A stretch of DNA of 64,000 nucleotides from Amyelois transitella (taxonomy: Eukaryota > Arthropoda > Insecta > Lepidoptera > Pyralidae). The notes under the pieces are model-generated. The model saw nothing but the letters and a program-made list of their open reading frames with translations. It made no database searches and was not told where the DNA came from. The stretch lies in assembly GCF_032362555.1 (NCBI RefSeq), contig NC_083527.1, positions 6,944,001 through 7,008,000 on the forward strand. Direction: 5' to 3'. Each line of letters opens with the position of its first letter. Position 1 is the stretch's first letter. The position numbers and the translations under genes are program-made. This document shows, in pieces, positions 4,821 through 57,750 of the stretch.

Positions 4821-5061
4821 ATAAATATATATATACGGGACAAATTACACAGATTGAGTTAGCCTCGAAGTAAGTTTGACACTTGTGTTACGAGATACTA
4901 ACTCAACGATACTATATTTTATAATAAATACTTATATAGATAAACATCCAAGACCCAGGCCAATCAGAAAAAGTTCTTTTCTCATCATGCCCTGGCCGGG
5001 ATTCGAACCCGGGACCCCCGGTGTCACAGGCAAGCGTACTACCGCTGCGCCACAGAGGCCG
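4821..5061 (-). mobile_element. Rep-T, tRNA-derived SINE
   Basis: Read on the minus strand it begins GGCCTCTGTGGCGCAGCGGT (A-box region), has the B box GGTTCGAATCC about 35 bases on, then a tRNA-unrelated body ending in the AT-rich 'ttgtcccgtatat' tail. The tRNA-like part does not fold to a full tRNA with matched acceptor ends, so I call it a SINE rather than a tRNA gene. Confidence 0.8.
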
Positions 5062-6786: not shown

Positions 6787-9700
6787 TCAACGGGTGAATT
6801 TCTCCTTGTGTATATGTGCGACTATAGCTAGAGCGCCCCCGGGTATGAACCTGACGAAATTGTCAGCTGTCAGGGGGCCCAGCGCGTACAACCCTTTGGG
6901 TGCATTGATTAATTCGTGCGTACTTTTATCAACAGCTATAGGATTCCTACTGTCAACTGGTTTTTTCGGATCCACACCAAACCCAACACCGCTCGAATTA
7001 TTCGCGGGACATTCGCATATCACTTTGTCATCTTCAACGGTATTATTAACTTCGTTCTCCGACTTACTGATCAGGTTATTGCACGTACATTTACTCTCGT
7101 TCCTCTTTATGCAGTCTGGCAACACACATTTGCCGTCAGTGTTGCCATTAATCTCCGTGTAGTTCAGATATCGCGATTTGCAACTCTGTATGCTTTGTCC
7201 GAGGACAGATTTTAAGTAATGCCAGTGTTCTCTCAAGAAGCACTGTCTTCTTTCCGCTTCGATCTTCTTTTTCGCTTGCATTTCTGTGCATTTAATGCAA
7301 TCCGAGTCTAATTCAATGCAGTTAAGGTTGAAATTTGTTTGTAGAAAGAAGAGGTCCGGCTTTGAACCGATGAGAACGGTTATAATTGAAACGATGACTT
7401 CTGTCACTTCGTTCGTGACTAAGTTGAGGAGTTTGACCCTCTTGGGGCGCAGTGTGGGGTCCCTCCTGGGGTCCGTGGGCGGCGGGGCCTCCTCTGGGGT
7501 CACGTCCACTATCACGTGGTTGGGGTACGATTTGTAGTTGGGATAGTTGCCGTTTTCTCCGTCACACATCATCTTGTACACCTGCGGACAGAAATTTGAT
7601 GATTATGATGATGAGTGTGAATGGACAAATTGAAAATACATACATACCTACATATAATTGAATGATAAATTTAAATCGAAGATTTTAACTATTTATAGAT
7701 TCTAACTAATAATCATCATTCTTTAATTAATAAGTTGTTAAGAGTGCCGTGTAGTTGCCGGCACTATGCAATAGAATAGGACCACACCATCTCTTTCCCA
7801 TGGATGTCGTAAAAGGCGACTGACGGGTAGGTATACAAACTCAATTCTATCATTAAGCCAAACAGTTGAGTGTGGCCTATCAGTCATTTCAAGGCTGTTG
7901 GCTCTGTCCACCGCACAAGAGACATAGACGTGACTATATGTATGTATGTAAATAAATGAGAGAATTATGTTTCACTTCTAGGGCTAGCTTAGGTAGTAGG
8001 TTAAGGACCAACTTAATTTTCAATCATTTTCAGTATAAAAGAGGACTTTATAGCCAGCATTAACATAGCAGCCGTCTACCCCGCAAGGGATATAGACGTG
8101 ACCATATGTATGTATGTATGTAGCATTATGCTGTGGGGGTACCCTTTCGGGAACAGCATACTACACGTCTATTTTTGTACATAGGTATTTGACCGGGAAA
8201 GAAGCGTGTTTTTTATGTATGTGCTAGCGACCCGCCCCGGCTTCGCACGGGTGCAAAATTATAAATGTTATTATACATAAAAACCTTCCTCTTGAATCAC
8301 TCTACCTGTTACAAAAAACCGCATCAAAATCCGTTGCGCAATTTTAAAGATTTAAGCATACAGACAAACAGACTAAAATAGCGACTTTGTTTTATACTAT
8401 GTAGTGATGTATTTTTAATAGAATAGATTATTTTTCAAAATTGTATACAAGGTACCACATATTGACGTCACATAACTTAAATCCAATTATAACCACCACC
8501 GCTTCCAAAGCGCGCGTGTAGAAGGAGCGGCGGAACAAACTACACTAATGAATGTCAACACCCACCTGGCAGTAGTCGGGGTAGGCGCGCGGCGAGAGGC
8601 GCGCAAACAAAGTCGCTATTTTAGTATGTTTGTCTGTATGCTTAAATCTTTAAAATTACTCAACGGATTTTGATGCGGTTTTTTGTAACAGGTAGAGTGA
8701 TTCAAGAGGAAGGTTTTTTTATGTAGATATAATAACATTTATAATTTTGCACCCGTGCGAAGCCGGGGCGGGTCGCTAGTCACATAACTTAAATCTAATA
8801 GTGTAGATGATTTTTAAATTTATTTATTTTTTTGACATTTGAATTCTACATTATTTTTGACATTTGACATTAGAATGTTATTATATTATACATTTGGGCT
8901 TGGTAATTAATTGTATAGATTTTTAATTTTTGTATGTAATGATTTTTTTCTTTCGAATGCTGTATGTATGTTGTTTCTGAAATAAATTGAATTGAATTAT
9001 AACTACTACAGCTTCCAAAGCGCGCGTGTAGAAGGAGCGGCGGAACAAACTACACTTGAAGTCGGTTTTAATAGATTATAATAGAATACATTTATTTTCA
9101 AAATTGGATACAACAAGATAATATCACTTATTGACGTCACATCACTTAAACCCAATTATAACTACCACAACTACTACCGTTTCGCGTGTGTAGAAGGAGC
9201 GGCGGAACAAACTACACTAATGAATGTCAACACCCACCTGGCAGTAGTCGGGGTAGGCGCGCGGCGAGAGGCGCGCAAACAAAGTCGCTATTTTAGTCTG
9301 TTCGTCTCTATGCTTAAATCTTTAAAATTACTCAACGGATTTTGATGCGGTTTTGTGTAACAGGTAGAGTGATTCAAGAGGACGGTTTTTTTTTATGTAT
9401 AACAACATTTATAATTTTGCACCCGTGCGAAGCCGGGGCGGGTCGCTAGTCACATAACAAAAATCTAATAGTGTAGATGATTTTTAAATTTATTAATTTT
9501 TTTGACATTTGAATTCTACATTATTTTTGACATTTGATATTAGAATGTTATTATATTATATTTGGGTTTGGTAATTAATTGTATAGATTTTTGTTTATAA
9601 ACGATGACCTGTATACTGTACATTAAGGATGCAATAAATAAATTGAATTGAATTGAATTAATTTTTGTATGTAATGAATTTTTTCTTTCGAATGCTGTAT

Positions 9701-12700: not shown

Positions 12701-15700
12701 AAGTTAACTGTTAAGTGTTCTCATCTAAAGGATATTTAAAAACGTTAATAGAAAAATATCGGTTCATATTTCAGAAAGTACGAAAAAAAATAAAAGTATC
12801 AAAATCCACGATCCTAAATACGTCATATCACCCCTGCCGGCGGAAAAGCGACGCGTAAGATTCAGAGGTCAACGACACAATTCATTTAGCTGAGCGATCT
12901 CGACAACTCTGTACTTTACTTGATCTTGATACTAGAAAAATAATTTATTTTTCAGACATTTATTTACATTTTTAGTTTTAATTTCTTTTTGTAGTATTGG
13001 TCTTTAATAAAGCATGTGACGTAGTTTTTGAGGGTTTTTTAAATGTGAAAATGATGACGTTTAATTTAAATAAAAATAGGTTCAAACGGCTCAGAAGCAT
13101 GGGTATAGCCTATGTTTAACAGGATGCAGTTGTTTTAAATGTCACCCTGTATATCGCATATACGTACAAAAATAGACATGTAGTATGCTGTTCCGGAAAG
13201 GGTACCCCCACAGCATAATGCTACATACTCATGGTCACGTCTAAATCCCTTGCGGGGTAGACAGCTGCTATGCTAATGCTGGCCGCAAACAATATTCAAA
13301 TTCAATATTTTTATTCATCATTCATTATAGGATACTTCATATCGCTTAATAATTGTCAAAACTTTTAGTTTCACAACATTGGTTGACGTCAAACAAATTA
13401 CTTAAAAACTAAGTTTACTGCCGCTTCCAAGGCGTCAGTGCAGAAGAAGCGGTAACAAACTGCACTGCAGCATTTTCTTTAACAGTCAAATATCCAAACT
13501 TAGAATAGAATGTGAACAAGAGAATACATTGACGGCCTCTGTGGCGCAGCGGTAGTACGCTTGACTGTGTCACCGGAGGTGCCGGGTTCGAATCCCGGCC
13601 AGGGCATGATGAGAAAAGAACTTTTTCTGATTGTCCTGGGTCTTGGATGTTTATTTATATAAGTATTTATTATAAAATATAGTTCGTTGAGTTAGCATCT
13701 CGTAACACAAGTCTCGAACTTACTTCGAGGCTAACTCATTCTGTGTAATTTGTCCCATATATATATTATTATTGTTCAGATTAATATATGCTACACAGCC
13801 AACGCTAACCCTCCACTTATACATATTAAAACATAATGTACCTTCAGCTTAGTAGCGCGCACGTATCTCCTGTAATAGTCCGCCAGCGCGCTGGCCGGCA
13901 GCCTGTCTCCGGAGTGGGCGCTGTGAGGGGGGAGCGTGAGCCAGGAACTGGGGGACAGGGTCCTGACGGCCGCGGGGAACCCGTGCCAAGCGCCCCCGGG
14001 GGGACCCCGGCCGAGCACTATGTGGGAGATCTGGTGGAACAAATTGTCAAAATTTAAGTTCAAAATTTTTATCCATTAGGTACTAGATGTCCCGGCAAAC
14101 GTTTTTTTTTCTTTTTTTAGTAACTAGCTGTGCCCGCGACTTCGTCCGCGTAGAATAGTTATTTTGGGCATCATTGAAGCCCTCGAGGATAAATAATTTT
14201 CCCCGTTTTTTTTTTCACATTTTCCATTATTTATTCGCTCCTAAAAGTTGCAGCGTGATGTTATATAGCCTATAGCCTTCCTCGATAAATGGTCTATTCA
14301 ACACAAAAATAATTTTTCAATTCGAACCAGTTATTTTTGAGATTAGCGCATTCAAGCTGAACTCTTCAGCTTTATAATATTAGTATAGATTACTAGTTTA
14401 AAAAAAATGTTAAGGATGGACAACCCTTCTCACTAAGGGGTATGAAAAATAGATCCTCAGACCTATTCAATGTGCTAACAAAATTTCATGAGAATCGGCC
14501 AAGCCGTTTCGGAGGAGTACGTGAACGAATATTGTGACACGAGAATTTTACATACATACATATGGTCACGTCTTTATCCCTTGCGGGGTAGACAGAGCCT
14601 ACAGTCTTGGGAAGACTGAATGGCCACGTTCAGCCGTTTGGCTTAATGATAAATTTGAGATTTAAATAGTGACAGGTTGCTAGCCCATCGCCTAAATAAG
14701 AATGCCAAGTTTGTAAGCCTATCTCGTTGTCGCCTTTTACGACATCCATGGGAAAGAGATGGAGTGGTCCTATTCATTAAATTGACGGTAGAACAGTATC
14801 ATAAGGTCTGCTACCTATATACGCTCAAATCATTCCCCTCTGCAGAATCAAGTCATCAAGAACACTAAAATAAGGATACCTGCTTCTCAACATCGTATTT
14901 CCACTCGATCAGCGGGTCAGCCTGAATGCCCAGGTCAGCACACGGCCTTAGCAGATTGTCCATCTGAAAAAAAACGAGGGTGTTATAAATAATAAAAAAA
15001 GAAAAAATTAGGAGGAGCTGAGGAGCCGAAAATAAAATTTTTGTATGTATGTTTGTAACGCGATAACTTTCGAACGGTTCGGTCCGATTTTTATGTAATT
15101 TCAAACATTACGTAGGATATGTCAATAAAATTTTTAAGTAAGTTGTACATAGATAAGCAACATGTCACTATTTGAATCTCAATTATATAATTAAGCGTTG
15201 CGTTTCTATAAATTGCCCTATTAAGTATGGTAATGAGGTTTTTGACATGCCTATTAATATACAGGCTGACATTTAAAACAACTGCATCATTTTAAACATA
15301 GACCCATGCTTCTGAGCCGTTAAAGCCTATTTTATTATTTAAATTAAACGTCATCATTTTCACATTTAAAAAAACCATCAAAAACTACTTCACACGCTTT
15401 ATTAAAGACCAATACTACAAAAAAAAAATCAAAACTAAACATGTAAATAAATGTCTGAAAAATAAATTATTTTTCTAGTATCAAGATCAAGTAAAGTACA
15501 GAGTTGTCGAGATCGCTCAGCTGAATGAATTGTGTCGTTGACCTCTGAATCTTACGCGTCGCTTTTCCGCCGGCCGGGGTGATATGACGTATTTAGGATC
15601 GTGGATTTTGATACTTTTATTTTGTTTCGTACTTTCTGAAATATGAACCGATATACTTCTTTTAACGTTTTTAAATATCCTTTAGATGAGTACACAAGTC

Positions 15701-17511: not shown

Positions 17512-20500
17512 CATTTATTTTGGCACAAACAGTCATAAGTACAAAATAAAATATCTTATAGAACAGTATACAGTATTATAGACCAAACAGTGCCGATTAA
17601 GTAAATATTATATGAATTATAATAACTTAAAACTACGCGTGTTAACGAACTTTGTGTTATTTAAATTAAAAGTATGTAACGGGATGCATGCATACAATTA
17701 GCATTACACAAAAATCGTAAAGAGTATAAAAATAAAAAATAAAACCGAAAACAATATTAAGAAATCTGTTTCAAGATAAATTTTGTACACACTTTGTTTT
17801 TAGTGGACAACAGAGAACAGGAAAATATGTCTATGTCTGAGAAAAATTTGTTATAATTTACAATGCAGCGATGAAAAAAGTTATTTCGAGTATAATTCCC
17901 GCGAAACTGAGGTGGTACTAAAATGTTAAGTTTGCGAGAGGAGCGAAGCGGAGCGGTTAACAAGCCTATCCCTTAGTCGCCTTTTACGACCTCCAGTTGC
18001 CTGAATGTGCACGTTTCCTCACGATGTTTTCCGTTCACCGTAAGAGCATCGGTTAGTATTCAAACTAATGTACATAACTTCGAAAATAGTTATAGGTACC
18101 TACAATGGCCAAGGTGGGATTTGAACCTGTGCCTATTATACGCATATCAACCGAGCAATTTACTTATTACATACATACATATGGTCACGGCTATTATCCC
18201 TTGCGGGGTAGACAGAGCGAACAGTCTTGGATAGACTGAAAGGTCACGTTCAGCTGTATGGCTTTATAATGATATTGAGATTCAAATAGTGACAGGTCGC
18301 TAACCCATCGCCTAAAAAAGAATCCCAAGTTTGTAAGCCTATCCCTTAGTCGCCTTTTACGACATCCATGGGAAAGAGACGGAGTGGTCCTATACTTTTT
18401 TGTATTGGTGCCGTTAACCGCACGGCACTTAACTTACTTATTCGACGACCGATTCGCACTTAACTTAACGGCCTCTGTGGCGCAGCGGCAGTACGCTTGT
18501 CTGTGACACCGGAGGTACCGGGTTCGAATCCCGGCCAGGGCGTGATGAGCAACGAACTTTTCCTGATTGGCCTGGGTCTTAGATGTTTATCTATATAAGT
18601 ATTTATTATAAAATATATTTGTGCGGTCTGGTTCCCGGCACTAATACAAAAATGAATAGGACCACTCCATCACTTTCCCATTGATGTTGTAAAAGGCGAC
18701 TAAGGGATGGGCTTACAAACTGGAGATTCTTTTTTTAGGCGATGGGCTAGCAACCTGTCACTATTTAGATCTCAATTCTATCATTAAGCCAAATAGCTGA
18801 ACGTGGCCGATCAGTCTTTTCAAGACTGTTGGCTCTGTCTACCCCACAAGGGATATAGATGTGACCATATGTATGTATGTATAAAATATAGTATCGTAGA
18901 GTTAGTATCTCGTAACACAAGTCTCGAACTTACTTCGAGGCTAACTCAAACAGTGTAATTTGTCCCGTACTGCCGTGGTATAACTAAAATGCCGTCATCT
19001 GACATCAGGATTTTCACCTATTTTACCAGTAGAATAATAAAAAAAAATCTCTTTCGATCTGTATACACATACGAAATTTTGGTACCATTAAGTCATAAAT
19101 AGGCGTTCTCATTGATGAATGGCATCAGTTTAAATTTTTACCGCATTTTTGACCTTTTACTTAAAACAAGGATTTGACATATAACGGCATTTTAGTTATA
19201 CCAGGGCAACGTATATATTTATTTACTTGACTAGCGAACCCACCTGGCTTTCAGCATGTCGTCTATGGGCAGGTCATCCGGAATCTGTTTCAGGTGGGGC
19301 ACGTTCCCCGCCAGCATGAAGGACGTGACTAATCCGCTGGGGCCGTTTCCTGGGAACAAATACATATACGTACATACATATAATCACGTCTTTATCCCTT
19401 GTGGGGTAGACAGAGCCAACAGTCTTACAAAGACAGGGGGTCGTACATTCCTACGTACATACATATAATCACGTCTATATCCCATGCGGGGTAGACAGAG
19501 CCAACAGTCTTACAAAGACAAGGGGGGCGTACATACATACATATAATCACGTCTATATCCCATGCGGGGTAGACAGAGCCAACAGTCTTACAAAGACAGG
19601 GGGGCGTACATTCCTACGTACATACATATAATCACGTCTATATCCCTTGCGGGGTAGACAGAGCCAACAGTCTTACAAAGACAGGGGGGCGTACAAACAT
19701 ACATATAATCACGTCTATATCCCATGCGGGGTAGACAGAGCCAACAGTCTTACAAAGACAAGGGGGGCGTACATACATACATATAATCACGTCTATATCA
19801 CTTGCGGGGTTGACAAAGCCAACAGTCTTACAAAGACAGGGGAGGCGTACATACATACATAAAATCACGTCTATATTCCTTGCGGGGTAGACAGAGCCAA
19901 CAGCCTTGAAAAGACTGATAGGCCACGTTCAGCTGTTCGGTTTTAAGATAGAATTGAGATTCAAAAACTGACAATTTGCTAGCCCATCGCCTAAAAGAAA
20001 AATCTCAAGTTTAAAAGCCTATCCCTTAGAAACCCCGGCTAAGAACCTATTCACAAATTAAAAAAAAACAATTGCGTAATTACAAGCAAGCAGCGAGCAG
20101 CTATTTAGAGTAATTGCAGCAATTAGTTTGTCAGACGAAAGGTTAAAATCCCATTGTGTAGATAATTACCGTGCCGTGTGGTTCCCGGCACCAATAAAAA
20201 AGAATAGCACCACTCCATCTCGTTACCGTGGATGTCGTTAAAGGCGACTAAGGGATATGCTTATAAACTTGGGATTCTTCTTTCAGGCGATGGGCTAGCA
20301 ACTTGTCACTATTTGAATATCAATTCTATCATAGAGCCAAACAGCTTAACGTGGCCTGTCAGTATATTCAAGACTGTTGGCTCTGTCTACCCCGCAAGTG
20401 ATATAAACGTGATAAATGTAAGTATGTATGTATGTTATATAAACGTACAATACAAAACAATGTCTTATTCTCGGACCATAAATGTGTGTATAGATAGATG

Positions 20501-27536: not shown

Positions 27537-27759
27537 ATATATATGAGACTGATTGAGTTAGCCTCGAAGTAAGTTCGACACTTGTGTTACGATATACTAA
27601 CACAACGATAAAATATCATATAATAAATACTTATATAGATAAACATAAACAAGACCCAGGCCAGAAAAAGTTCTTTTTTCATCATGCCCTGGCCGGGATT
27701 CGAACCCGGGACCTCCGGTGTCACAGACAAGCGTACTACCGCTGCGCCACAGAGGCCGT
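27537..27759 (-). mobile_element. Rep-T, full-length tRNA-derived SINE
   Basis: A and B boxes intact on the minus strand; about 90 percent like the copy at 13533. Confidence 0.85.
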
Positions 27760-47411: not shown

Positions 47412-48269
47412 ATGGCTTCCGTTCCGGCAGCCCGAAGTGCTCGCTTGGCTCGCGAAATTTTGAATTTCGAAACAAGGCCGCCATGGGGTATTTCTTGCGT
47501 ACCAGCTGAAAAGGATAACTTCGATGTGCTCATTGCCACTTTGAACGGGCCTAGAAACACTCCGTATGAGAACGGCAAGTTCAAAGTGCGGATCACAATA
47601 CCTGACATGTACCCGTACGAACCGCCTCTTGTGAAATTCGCCACACCTGTGTACCATCCTAATATTGACAGAGGTATTCTAATTTTTTTTTATAGTTATC
47701 TATCCCTTTTCAATTTTCATCTTAAAAGAAAGTATATTACACATACATACATAAAATCACGCCTCTTTCCCGGAGGGGTAGGCCCTACCTACCTCTTTCC
47801 ACTTCGCTTCATCCACATTCATAACTCTCTTCACGCAAGAAACAAAGAAAGTTATTTAAAAGTCTATATAGAAGTAGAAATAAGTAAGTTAGCAGGTTCA
47901 ATCTGCTTAGAATATGTCTGTGTGAAATTTTATGTAGTACCCATTCGCTTTTTATCTACCGCCTGCAGTCCAAATGCTAGTCCATACTTTTGTACGGAAT
48001 TCTTATGTGCCAGCCATAAACCAATTACCTGAGAAACCAATTTATTTGTTAAAGGTGGTCGTATTTGCATGGACATGCTGAAAATGCCTCCGAGGGGAGC
48101 CTGGGTGCCGACAATCACTCTGGAAACTTTACTCGTATCACTCCAGACCCTATTGGCTAATCCTAACCCTAATGACCCTCTGATGATGGACGTAGCCAAC
48201 GAGTATAAGCAAGACAGAGATCAGTTCATGCTAAATGCTAAGTTATACACAGAGAAATATGCCGTTTAA
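47412..48269 (+). CDS. UBE2T: Ubiquitin-conjugating enzyme E2 T-like
   Basis: Two exons, 47412-47673 and 48055-48269, 158 residues. The E2 fold is plain: HPN at 82-84, catalytic Cys92 in GGRICMDMLKMPPRGAW, then TLETLLVSLQTLLANPNPND. The MLKMPPRGAW stretch and the PNPNDPLM end single out UBE2T among E2s. In vertebrates UBE2T works with FANCL to monoubiquitinate FANCD2 in DNA crosslink repair; the same role here is inference. Reading on past the GTATTC donor gives a false 206-residue frame that runs into a Rep-B copy in the intron. The splice joins AGA-G to GT-GGT and restores the conserved Gly-Gly-Arg-Ile-Cys. Confidence 0.9.
47733..47840 (-). mobile_element. Rep-B fragment in the UBE2T-like intron
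   Basis: TATG tail at 47740-47752, then about 85 bp of the coding end with a small deletion. Confidence 0.8.
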
Positions 48270-48369: not shown

Positions 48370-48599
48370 AATATAGCTAATAAAAGGGAAAGGGAATCAC
48401 AGGTATGTCAGACTGGTGTAATAGTGAGCAGTCTAGTTTGACTCTCAGACATTCTTAATATGTGATGCCATAGAATTACTTTTACTTTTGATTATAGAAA
48501 AATACATTTTAATAAATTCTTAAGGTAGTGAAATGTAGTATGTACTGAATTTAAGTAAGTAACATAATTAGTTCTACATTCATTCATGTTTTTTAATGT

Positions 48600-48955
48600 A
48601 GACAATGAGCATTTGTCCACGATTTAGATTTAAGAGATTTATATTTGTAAATTGACATCTGCTGAAAATACTGCAGTGTAGTTTGTTCCGCCGCTTCTTC
48701 TACACATGCGCTTTGGAAGTGGTAGTAGATTTAAGTGATGTGTCATCAATAAGTGATACTTTGTATCCAATTTTGAAAATAAATCTATTCTAAATTTTTG
48801 TGTAAAGTACATTTTAATTGTTTTTGTGATTGGCCTGGGTCTTGGATGTTTATCTATATAAGTATTTATTTTAAAATATTGTATTGTTGAGTTAGTATCT
48901 CGTAACACAAGTTTCCAACTTACTACGAGGCTAACTCAATCTGTGTAATTTGTCT
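48600..48955. mobile_element. Inverted Rep-X followed by a Rep-T tail
   Basis: 48600-48795 is a minus-strand Rep-X; 48826-48955 is the 3' half of a + strand Rep-T without its tRNA-like head. Confidence 0.75.
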
Positions 48956-50417: not shown

Positions 50418-51412
50418 TCATCCCGTGTCTGTACTGCTGTCATCCCCTGAACTTGCACTCTCAGTCTCCGAAGAGCTGCTGCCTTTCACCTTCACAACTT
50501 CTACATTATTGTTACTCTTATCGTTACTATTTCTATTCTCCTTCTTCTTCTTCTTATCATCACTGGCAGTGGGTTTCAAAGTTTCCGTAGAGACGGTTGC
50601 CACCATTTTGGTTTCGGCCTGTACATCCGGTGGTTTGTCTACGTCTTCCTCGTCAATTGGTTTGCTGTTAGCTATCGATGTTGCTATGGCGTGCTTGTAT
50701 GCTTCAGGGTATTGTGTGCTGAAAAATTTGATAGAATTTATAAATAAGAATATAAATAAGATAAATGGATGTCTGGTCAATCATCAACAAAATATCCTTG
50801 TTACCTTAGCTTAGTTTTGATAGCCCGTATTTTTTTGAATATAAACTCAAGGTCTTTTTTCATATCTAGAAGCAGTTGTGTATGTTTCTTGAATTCTACA
50901 GATGCAGCGCGGAGACGGCTCGCAGACAATTGGTTACAATTTGTCAGCATTTCAGTAGTTTTTTCAAATCTTTGTAGCCTGGGAATTGATAAATAATTTA
51001 TGGTTTAGCCTGGCTTATTGCTACCACAATTTTTAAGGTGGATTGGAAAGTCAATAGCGTCTATAAACCTACCTACTCTGAATCTTTGAATGTAGAGATC
51101 TTAAGGTGTGCAGAATATTGTCAGAAAAGAAGACAGTGAGTGTTATTTAGAGAGTAATTATAAATAGTTATAGATGCTTTCAATAGGTGCTCGTCGTGGG
51201 CAAACGATTTATCTTAATTAATAATGGTTTTTTAATTTGAACAATTAATAGAATACATTAAAAGGTGCTTACATATTTTTTTGCGCACGAATAATAGTTT
51301 CGACGTCAGTTTGGTCCACCATGCCCGCCAACCCTTGCACAAATACTTCGGGCGCTGAGTAGTTTTGAAAGCATTCTATTGAAAAATCACTCTCTGGAGT
51401 GTCGTTTGCCAT
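50418..51412 (-). CDS. KXD1: KxDL motif-containing protein 1, BORC subunit
   Basis: Three exons, 51412-51273, 50978-50805 and 50718-50418, 204 residues. Residues 35-106 match KXD1: DVETIIRAQKNMLQRFEKTT, then a helix with the K-x-D-L motif at 87-90 (LLLDMKKDLEFIFKKIRAIK) and TQYPEAY. The region should form a long coiled coil. The C-terminal 85 residues are Lys/Asn- and then Ser/Asp-rich and look disordered; this tail varies in the family. KXD1 belongs to BORC, which recruits Arl8 and kinesin to move lysosomes outward. AATAAA lies on the minus strand at 50296-50291. Confidence 0.9.
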
Positions 51413-52145
51413 TTTTCCACTAATTAATGGATAAAAATACAATTTTATAGTTTGGTTCTGAGATTGATTTGTTTACTTAATGTAAGTCACTGTCAGTTCA
51501 GTCATCATGACAAATGTCATGTAAATTTTGCGTTTAATATTTGTACAAAACCAATTTGTTAATCAGTCTTTGGAATATGTAAATATCTTTATTTTATTCA
51601 ATTTATTAAATTATTAAAATATCAAAATCAGGTAGGGGACGGTTTCCTGATTCGATCGATTTAAAAAATATATAGACTTGTCATGCCATCTATAATAGAT
51701 AATTACAGAGTAGTTGAATTAGAATCCAGACTTTAAAAATTAACCTGATTTCAAAAAATTATGGTAGCAAGCAATAGCAATCATTCTATGCCTGTTTTCT
51801 AAATGGCGGAAATCTCTATCTGGTAGTCAGAAGTTAAACTTAAACGTATTTATAGTTTCATAATTGTGATGAAAGATGGAGTTGTTTTAAAAAAGGAAGA
51901 AGTGTTACAAGAGGAAAATAATGGCGAATTATACAAATCTTTTCCCACGAACTGCGGCCGGACTTATACCGATACTTGACAAAATGCAAAAAATTCCTTG
52001 ATAACTAAAAAAAAAACAAAAATGATGAATGGCACATGGTAAAAAAACAATCGGTGTTATGGAATAGTAAAATGTTTGTATTCATTTGAATCTATTACTA
52101 AATATGGTCTTTTAAATAAACTTGAATTCAAAATGCAGGCCACAA
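51413..52145. other. Intergenic, no gene or known repeat
   Basis: Contains the KXD1 promoter side and the 3' flank of the next gene. No repeat family recognised. Confidence 0.5.
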
Positions 52146-53006
52146 TTATACATTAGTTTTCTGTAATTTTTCCAACCTCTGTTTCAGCCTCATTTGTCTC
52201 ACTTGATGAATCGACTTCGGGAACAGCGACTTACGCCTGTACCTTGCTAAAAAGCTTAGCAGATTCTGAATACGTACTGCGACAGTATCATCGTCGTATG
52301 GATCTCTCACTTCGACTTCTATATCATCCTCACCTAATTGTTTGACTACACACTCAGCTCTTTCGCATCGTTGAAAAAGGGCGCGCAGAACAACATGTAC
52401 ATCATCTTGGTCAGTTACAATTGTATCGTACAACCTCAAATTGCTGCTTCTCAATTCAGTTCCCGAATCTACATCTTCATCGTTCCTCAAATCGGTTCTG
52501 CTGCATCCGCATCTCAACTGGCCACTCTCACTCCTTTCGCAACCGCAAGATTCTTCTCGATTGCAGCCACATCTTAAAGCGTCGCTTCTGCCACCGCCAC
52601 ATCCACATCGTAAAGATTCGCTTCTCGGACATCCACAGGTAGGGTTTCTCTTACAACCACATCTTAGGGCGCCTTCGTCACTCCTGCTGCATCCGCACCT
52701 TAGATCTTTATTGTCGTCTAATTCTTTCTTATTATCAGTACACCCAATTCTACCACATCTCGCTAAATCTTTAGCGACTGCTTGTATGAGTTCTATTAAT
52801 ATTTTATTCTCATACTGTATTCCATACTCATCCGGGTCTTCATATATTTGCCCATTTGGTTTACGTTTAGGAGAGGCTTCGTTTTCTTGATTATCACCTC
52901 GATCAGGCTGTTTTACCTTGATTTTCCAGTCTTTTAAATTATTGCCGTAATGTCTTCCATGTACAGTCCAGATAAGAGCTGCGAAAATGATGAGTTTCCA
53001 GAGCAT
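52146..53006 (-). CDS. Secreted protein with seven Cys-Gly-Cys motifs, unrecognised
   Basis: Single exon, 286 residues. Residues 1-17 are a clear signal peptide (LIIFAALIWTVHG). Residues 18-65 are charged and Pro/Lys-rich. Residues 102-171 hold seven CGC motifs (104-106, 116-118, 124-126, 134-136, 147-149, 154-156, 166-168) in a repeated Leu-Arg-Cys-Gly-Cys or Ser/Thr-Cys-Gly-Cys setting spaced 8 to 13 residues. The block is bracketed by two similar segments: LIQAVAKDLARCGRIGC (73-89) and VVLRALFQRCERAEC (205-219). The C-terminus is Arg/Lys-rich. I do not recognise the family. Paired Cys could bind metal or form disulphides; which is unknown. Codon use is normal and the frame is full length, so it is very likely a real gene. 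Confidence 0.8.
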   Translation of the reverse strand: MLWKLIIFAALIWTVHGRHYGNNLKDWKIKVKQPDRGDNQENEASPKRKPNGQIYEDPDEYGIQYENKILIELIQAVAKDLARCGRIGCTDNKKELDDNKDLRCGCSRSDEGALRCGCKRNPTCGCPRSESLRCGCGGGRSDALRCGCNREESCGCERSESGQLRCGCSRTDLRNDEDVDSGTELRSSNLRLYDTIVTDQDDVHVVLRALFQRCERAECVVKQLGEDDIEVEVRDPYDDDTVAVRIQNLLSFLARYRRKSLFPKSIHQVRQMRLKQRLEKLQKTNV

Positions 53007-55026: not shown

Positions 55027-55841
55027 TTAAAAACCTGAAATTAGCCCAATCGGCATCACGAACCGCCTCAAATCGGATCTTTTCCTTCCTACAATCTTCT
55101 TTAGACTTCTAAAATTGTCGACACCACTTCTTCTTCTATTTTCAATCACTCGAAACTTGTCCAAACCTTTCTCGTAATCTTCCAACGGTCCCCCGTCATC
55201 TTTCAAATCGTCGTGATGCGCAAACGCTTCATCGTATCGTCTAGAAAACAACCTGCCTGGATCTATACTCCTTCTACCAGATTCCTCGTACGAATCAAGA
55301 TCACCTTTCCGTTTTCTGTTCTTAACTAATACATCTTCTATAAGCCGCTGTTCTTCCACGATGCCAGCTAAGTCGAATCTGTCGTTATGATCCCCAAAAG
55401 TCACGTCAGGACGCATATCCGTACTGACAGCATATTGACATAATGCCGGAGTGATGAACAGAAGGAAACTTGTAATTATGTGGAGTCTGAAATTTTATAA
55501 GAATAAATTACAGTTATGACTAAGGTATGACTAAGGTGCCGTGTGGTTCCCGGCACCAACAGAAAAAAGAATAGGACCACTCCATCTCTCTCCCATGGAT
55601 GTCGTAAAAGGCGACTAAAGGGTAGGCTTATAAAACTTGGGATTCTTCTTTTAGGCGATGGGCTAGCAACCTGTCACTATTTGAACCTAAATTCTACCAT
55701 TAAGCCAAATAGCTAAACGTGGCCATTCAGTCTTTTCAAGACTGTTGGCTCTGTCTACCCCGCAAGGGATATAGACTCGACCATACGTATATACATATGT
55801 ATGTATGACGACGTTAAAAAAATGACTTTTGGTTACCTCAT
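55027..55841 (-). CDS. Small secreted protein, possible peptide-hormone precursor
   Basis: Proposed two coding exons: 55841-55837 (only ATG-AG) and 55486-55027, 154 residues. The splice gives MRLHIITSFLLFITPALC, a good signal peptide, from a long exon that has an acceptor at 55487 and no ATG of its own before the hydrophobic stretch. After the signal come acidic, Arg-rich stretches with several dibasic sites: RKRK at 59-62, RR at 73-74 and 84-85, RRR at 119-121, GRKR at 135-138. Gly followed by basic residues is the usual sign for amidation. A 13-residue peptide would lie between RRR and GRKR. No Cys after the signal. I do not recognise it as a named neuropeptide family. The first exon rests on sequence logic only. 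Confidence 0.65.
55537..55800 (+). mobile_element. Rep-A copy in the first intron of the small secreted protein
   Basis: Full length, antisense to the gene, ending 35 bp from the proposed first-exon donor. Confidence 0.85.
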
Positions 55842-56560: not shown

Positions 56561-56871
56561 TACATTGTTATGATTAATCGATTTAATCAAAATCTAAATA
56601 ATATCTAAATATATACATCCTAATTGTAAATTCAAATATACTCGTAGTTTATCAATCAGCAAAATGCAAAGTTTTTTGATCTGTATGCCCCTAAACTTAA
56701 AACTTAATTAATCAAGAATCAAATGAAACAACCCGGTAGCCCAATTGGCATGAGAGTTTAAAAAACTTACGCAAATGCCGAGAACCACACGAAACACGGT
56801 CCATAACACATCTCAAAAACTTACTTTGGGGCTAGCTCGATCTGGATTTTTACGATATTTAAGTATTATTT

Positions 56872-57750
56872 AGAATAGAATAGAATAGAATAGAATAGAA
56901 TAGAATAGAATAGAGTAGAATAGAGTAGAATAGAATAGAATAGAACAGAATAGAACAGAATAGAACAGAATAGAACAGAATAGAACAGAATAGAACAGAA
57001 TAGAACAGAATAGAACAGAATAGAACAGAATAGAACAGAATAGAACAGAATAGAACAGAATAGAACAGAATAGAACAGAATAGAACAGAATAGAACAGAA
57101 TAGAACAGAATAGAACAGAATAGAACAGAATAGAACAGAATAGAACAGAATAGAACAGAATAGAACAGAATAGAACAGAATAGAACAGAATAGAACAGAA
57201 TAGAACAGAATAGAACAGAATAGAACAGAATAGAACAGAATAGAACAGAATAGAACAGAATAGAACAGAATAGAACAGAATAGAACAGAATAGAACAGAA
57301 TAGAACAGAATAGAACAGAATAGAACAGAATAGAACAGAATAGAACAGAATAGAACAGAATAGAACAGAATAGAACAGAATAGAACAGAATAGAACAGAA
57401 TAGAACAGAATAGAACAGAATAGAACAGAATAGAACAGAATAGAACAGAATAGAACAGAATAGAACAGAATAGAACAGAATAGAACAGAATAGAACAGAA
57501 TAGAACAGAATAGAACAGAATAGAACAGAATAGAACAGAATAGAACAGAATAGAACAGAATAGAACAGAATAGAACAGAATAGAACAGAATAGAACAGAA
57601 TAGAACAGAATAGAACAGAATAGAACAGAATAGAACAGAATAGAACAGAATAGAACAGAATAGAACAGAATAGAACAGAATAGAACAGAATAGAACAGAA
57701 TAGAACAGAATAGAACAGAATAGAATAGAATAGAATAGAATAGAATAGAT
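56872..57750 (+). repeat. Satellite of TAGAA / TAGAACAGAA units
   Basis: Bases 56941-57720 are 78 perfect copies of the 10-bp unit TAGAACAGAA. On both sides lie 5-bp TAGAA units with a few TAGAG variants (56872-56940 and 57721-57750). The array runs straight into the start of Rep-X at 57735. The 307-codon open frame on the minus strand is a by-product, since 10-bp units repeat in phase every 30 bp without a stop. Confidence 0.97.

Follow-up and report, generated by a model that had tools for sequence, protein, structure and literature searches.

Background

Repeats of the form CX10CXCXC, in which Cys-X-Cys elements lie about ten residues apart, occur both in the silk proteins of Chironomus and in VEGF-C/D. 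The Chironomus proteins (sp185 and sp220, of the Balbiani-ring type) are secreted and cysteine-rich, as is the silk homology domain found in VEGF-C/D (PMC3068167, PMC7926383, in part). Disulfide-rich materials include Chironomus silk, with about 16% cysteine, and the eggshell proteins of silkmoths, with up to about 30% (PMC3068167, in the part available), and the chorion of Hyalophora is described as hardened via disulfide cross-links (PMC13409908, in part). Moth chorion includes cysteine-rich classes, and silkmoth chorion genes are described as split in two, with exon 1 the minor and exon 2 the major part (PMC4639761, in the part available). Metallothioneins are characterized as proteins of less than 10 kDa with 15-30% cysteine, no aromatic residues and Cys-X-Cys motifs (PMC4229212, in part). 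The tripeptide Cys-Gly-Cys (CGC) has itself been studied in redox peptides that mimic protein disulfide isomerase (PDI), where its reduction potential is given as -167 mV and that of the PDI CGHC site as -180 mV (PMC4316792, in part).

We analysed a 64,000-nucleotide window of the Amyelois transitella genome in which an open reading frame (ORF) encodes a protein with seven CGC triplets. Like the Chironomus silk proteins and VEGF-C/D, the CGC protein is probably secreted, is rich in cysteine and repeats Cys-X-Cys elements at intervals of roughly ten residues, but it is far smaller than the Chironomus proteins, has CXC only where these have CXCXC, always places Gly between the two cysteines, and yields no Pfam match to the PDGF/VEGF domain. 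With the high-cysteine chorion proteins of silkmoths (HcA/HcB; PMC4639761, in part) it would share secretion, a moth host, abundant cysteine and a role in disulfide cross-linking; it differs from them in being encoded by one exon, in lacking a chorion domain and in being charged rather than Gly-rich. Its CGC block resembles insect metallothioneins in holding cysteine in Cys-X-Cys motifs only and in its size and composition, yet the block forms part of a protein of 31 kDa that starts with a signal-like leader, is Arg-rich and has Gly between every cysteine pair. The PDI mimics contain the same tripeptide (PMC4316792, in part), whereas here there are seven, in a segment without a match to a thioredoxin-type domain. 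The CGC protein does not clearly stand out as a new type of system.

Results

Gene structure and coding evidence

The features of the locus are collected in Table 1. The stop-to-stop frame of the gene comprises 287 codons, whereas the longest such frame in each of 60 64-kb windows simulated under an order-2 Markov model averaged 148 and never exceeded 198. With the TATA box in this place, the predicted start site would leave roughly 30 nt of 5' UTR. On the 3' side, the first AATAAA lies 539 nt past the stop.

Table 1. Coordinates of the CGC gene, its predicted protein segments and adjacent features (positions within the window)
Feature	Position	Strand	Description
Single-exon CDS	52146..53006	-	ATG to TAA, 286 aa; in-frame TGA two codons before ATG
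Putative signal peptide, residues 1-17	52956..53006	-	Called by eye; hydrophobic core LIIFAALIWTV, cleavage VHG/R
N-terminal flank, residues 18-101	52704..52955	-	Hydrophilic; amphipathic stretch; RCGRIGC
RCGRIGC, residues 83-89	52740..52760	-	CX4C
CGC block, residues 102-170	52497..52703	-	Seven CGC, spacing 12-8-10-12-8-12
C-terminal flank, residues 171-286	52149..52496	-	36% hydrophobic residues; last 28 residues basic
RCERAEC, residues 213-219	52350..52370	-	CX4C
TATA box TATATATAA	53056..53064	-	58 nt before ATG
Candidate variant poly(A) signals	52077..52096	-	AATAGA (+50) and AATACA (+64) after stop
KXD1-like gene	50418-51412	-	Apparently at least 3 exons; next gene downstream
E2 ubiquitin-conjugating enzyme gene	47412..48266		Neighbour gene

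Codon use of the ORF is mildly coding-like, with 5 of 2000 random segments scoring equally high. Across its full length, a different reading frame on that strand scores above the ORF frame (0.131 vs 0.079); once the CGC block is removed, the ORF frame scores best (0.110 vs 0.088). Codon statistics thus mildly support coding and are not frame-specific while the block is included. This weak signal, together with the fact that the gene is known here from sequence alone, would suit a chance open frame running over a repeat with no gene behind it. We rejected that explanation because of the length of the frame relative to the simulated windows and because CGC persists despite silent divergence, far beyond what neutral simulations retain (see below); the presence of both a TATA box and a signal-like leader also counts against it, and we consider it highly improbable. 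The interval is very probably a real gene for a secreted protein, present in one full-length copy and matching no family searched.

The KXD1-like gene, which we take to encode a BORC subunit (KxDL), begins about 730 nt beyond the CGC-gene stop on the same strand. Its exon piece at 50807-50971 matches Pfam KxDL (E 7.5e-18); the other pieces were placed by translation, among them the first exon piece, at 51272-51412, which is itself without a Pfam match. Further neighbours within the window are VHL and a kinase (Pfam Pkinase), presumably Pelle/IRAK.

Several other elements of the window were recorded. Upstream of the CGC gene, 55027-55494 on the minus strand carries an exon whose product looks secreted, has many dibasic sites (KRK, GRR, SRR, RKR) and may be a precursor of peptides; translation would have to begin in an exon further upstream, and the one Pfam match (E 0.31) is below the cut-off. 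A 264-aa open frame with several cysteines at 6787-7581 on the minus strand has no Pfam match at E<=1. A ten-base minisatellite (TAGAACAGAA) of about 88 copies with 99% identity occupies 56871-57749 and abuts a dispersed repeat, of which an inverted copy without such an array is found at 48598-48792. Four matches resembling tRNA-His, two per strand (4988-5059, 13535-13606, 18471-18542 and 27685-27756), resemble copies of a tRNA-derived SINE more than separate genes because a similar 3' tail (tgatga...aactttt...) is, by eye, common to them.

Protein layout

The original prediction, of a secreted-type protein with a signal peptide, seven CGC motifs and an RCxRxxC segment in each flank, agrees with the layout found here. 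The putative signal peptide was called by eye, with the cleavage site placed by the -3,-1 rule (MLWKLIIFAALIWTVHG|RH), and a leader of this kind is plausible. Cleavage there would leave a mature protein of about 30.7 kDa. Fourteen of the 18 cysteines of the full protein sit in CGC triplets, the remaining four being C84/C89 and C214/C219, and no N-glycosylation sequon is present in the protein. The block of seven triplets had been given as 70 residues long and evenly set; it measures 69 residues, and the triplets, which start at residues 104, 116, 124, 134, 146, 154 and 166, are unevenly spaced (Table 1).

The CGC block

Seven CGC triplets exceed what composition would produce: no more than 2 appeared in any of 20,000 shuffles of the whole protein, and 20,000 shuffles confined to residues 103-170 reached a maximum of 4 and never 7. 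Neither stray cysteines in the block nor decayed triplets retaining two of the three CGC residues (within residues 90-210) were found outside the seven. Among the seven CGC-encoding words, third positions differ in 38 of 63 comparisons. The invariance of positions 1 and 2 is forced by choosing words that encode CGC and is no proof alone; the restriction of differences to third positions was therefore rejected as a selection argument, being circular. Neutral simulations were therefore run under the assumption of common descent, with the words radiating as a star from a single ancestor and silent divergence set to the 38 observed differences; none of 3000 runs kept all seven CGC (mean kept 0.29, maximum 4).

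Two 30-residue stretches, beginning at residues 102 and 132, share 19 identical residues, and the identity is concentrated at the CGC positions (9 of 9, vs 10 of 21 other residues). At codon level the two stretches agree in 3 of 30 positions, show silent differences in 16 and encode another residue in 11, so that 16 of the 19 conserved residues are encoded by different codons. Cys and Gly have been retained in spite of strong divergence at silent sites, and therefore the array is probably old and kept by selection, provided that the seven words share descent and as judged from one genome. The growth of a CGC repeat between the flanks, as originally suggested, is accordingly plausible, but with different codons at so many conserved residues it would be an old event.

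Linkers separated by three places resemble one another more than under random ordering (128 of the 5040 permutations of seven linkers score as high), and 96 of 720 permutations reach the value when the six bounded linkers only are used. Tandem Repeats Finder reports a two-copy, 36-base repeat with 77% match inside the array. The linker similarity lends weak support to a possible higher-order unit that comprises three CGC and recurs about 2.3 times.

The block contains 13 basic and 8 acidic residues and is 10% hydrophobic. Taken alone, at 7.3 kDa and 20.3% Cys, with seven CXC and no F, Y, W or H, it fits the description of metallothioneins (PMC4229212, in the part available), and it could be a metallothionein-like domain within a secreted protein, its seven Cys-X-Cys motifs wrapping a copper or zinc cluster. 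The whole protein, with aromatic residues and 18 Cys in 286 residues, does not fit it, and the mature form lies well above the 10-kDa limit; the apparent signal peptide is a further point against this reading. Pfam includes metallothionein families, and neither the whole protein nor its pieces matched one. Thiols in the ER tend to oxidise, which also counts against metal binding, as does the absence of the metal-response word TGCRCNC within 1 kb upstream. We regard this explanation as unlikely.

Flanking segments

The flanks had been proposed to derive from one doubled ancestral segment (residues 73-89 and 205-219). The best local alignment between them scores 31, against a shuffled mean of 27 (BLOSUM62, gaps 11/1), a score reached by 18.6-20.2% of shuffles in two runs. 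Under three other gapped schemes 8.8%, 9.0% and 27.8% of shuffles reach the flank score, and 44% do so without gaps. The doubling was rejected because the score falls within the shuffled range under all schemes. Between the flanks, only the CX4C spacing recurs: the only two cysteines of each flank are so spaced, which happens in both flanks together in 7 of 20,000 shuffles by a post-hoc test. The helix originally placed before RCxRxxC finds support in the N-terminal flank, where the preceding stretch is amphipathic (moment 0.50, reached by 214 of 5000 shuffles); in the C-terminal flank amphipathicity is not clear (1716 of 5000).

Hydrophobic stretches in the flanks (36% hydrophobic residues in the C-terminal one) raise the alternative of a compact disulfide-rich effector or ligand, such as an immune or hormone-like proprotein, in which CGC pairs within one chain would form a rigid rod presenting the flanks. 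RXRR is the consensus of a processing-type site, and its occurrence at residues 255-258 would free the basic 28-residue tail. However, shuffling the mature protein also yields an RX[KR]R 46% of the time (9251 of 20,000 trials), and the amphipathicity of the tail is unremarkable, being reached by 2776 of 5000 shuffles. Because both the site and the moment are at chance level, the release of a basic amphipathic peptide by processing was rejected as a firm claim. No kappa-B-like site, in two consensus forms, was found within 1 kb upstream, and Pfam, NCBIfam and PHROGs give no family match. An effector or ligand is as likely as metal binding, and we place both below cross-linking.

Homology searches

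The whole protein has no match in Pfam, NCBIfam or PHROGs at E<=1, and none among PDB sequences at E<=10. When it was divided into three pieces there was again no PDB match, and two Pfam matches (E 0.19 and 0.26) were below the cut-off. That the protein was unrecognised thus holds within these four collections, although the silence of NCBIfam, which covers prokaryotes, and of PHROGs, which covers phages, says little. Orthologues named "uncharacterized" may well exist among insect proteins. In the 327-Mb assembly of 33 contigs, in which the window lies on contig C23, the full protein and the N-terminal flank each retrieved one match, the gene itself. By tblastn no relative was found in phages or in two contig collections that are, by their descriptions, of viruses (32 pattern matches) and prokaryotes (39). 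At least 236 CGC-pattern loci in the viral contigs included 102 frames with at least three CGC at a spacing of 8-12; of the 40 of these frames that were listed, many are near-perfect repeats by eye. The literature searched yielded no paper on Cys-Gly-Cys repeats in Lepidoptera.

A drifted member of the moth chorion family was considered, since cysteine-rich classes occur in moth chorion (PMC4639761, in part) and six chorion frames of the same genome hold one CGC each. The protein has no match to Chorion_1 (PF01723) at E<=1. PF01723 matches in the genome number at least 16, with at least 15 on C28, at least one on C8 and none listed on C23; these matches, like the dispersed repeats, point to a lepidopteran genome. 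The six frames examined among them have 2-4 Cys and Gly-rich arms, and their single CGC contrasts with the seven found here; none is of the high-cysteine type, so that this class was not directly compared. The CGC gene is one open frame, as opposed to the two exons given for silkmoth chorion genes (PMC4639761, in part). A single copy of TCACGT, the chorion hexamer, is present in the 1 kb upstream, at -306 and inside a dispersed repeat. With no chorion domain, a single frame and a different place in the genome, the gene is therefore not regarded as a member of the chorion family, and membership is the least credible of the explanations considered. The protein may nonetheless act in the eggshell without belonging to the family.

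Each CGC could also serve as a small isomerase site in a thiol-disulfide exchange factor acting on other secreted proteins. The reduction potentials given for CGC and for the PDI site, and the mimicry of PDI by CGC peptides, speak for this (PMC4316792, in part). Pfam detects no thioredoxin-like domain, and single CGC sites suffice elsewhere, so that seven would need another reason; we think such a factor very unlikely.

Discussion

Our preferred interpretation, held tentatively and at somewhat less than even confidence, is that the intronless, TATA-driven gene encodes a secreted protein that would be cross-linked outside the cell through CGC disulfides. Judging from its sequence, the signal peptide would direct the protein to the ER. 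The hydrophilic block, too poor in hydrophobic residues for a normal core, would be held by disulfides. Not all of the seven triplets can be paired triplet to triplet within the chain, so some may bond other chains. The otherwise ordinary flanks, with one CX4C pair each, may hold the chain or pair with partners, and the inter-chain bonds could build a matrix by analogy with midge silk and the cysteine-rich moth eggshell.

In favour of cross-linking we count the retention of CGC despite silent divergence, the composition of the block (20% Cys, 10% hydrophobic), the TATA box near the ATG and the coding frame without an intron. Against it we count the overall cysteine content (18 of 286 residues), which is below that of the structural examples, the charged and fairly ordinary flanks, which are not Gly/Ala-rich, and the single full-length copy, compared with at least 16 chorion-family matches in the same genome. 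It is also conceivable, if quite improbable, that the protein represents a moth-lineage family with an exported metallothionein-like CGC array, a thiol scaffold switchable between metal-bound and disulfide states with the CX4C flanks as anchors.

Conclusions

Lineage-specific cysteine-rich secreted genes are common in insects, and if other moths prove to have relatives with an existing "uncharacterised" annotation, the CGC gene would be an ordinary one of this kind. Metal binding by the block would make it a metallothionein-like domain that is exported, and we know of no description of such a domain. Since there is one full-length copy, the gene can be removed and tested. Should the product prove to be secreted and cross-linked, its CGC array, which looks old and selected, would be a short natural module for disulfide materials.
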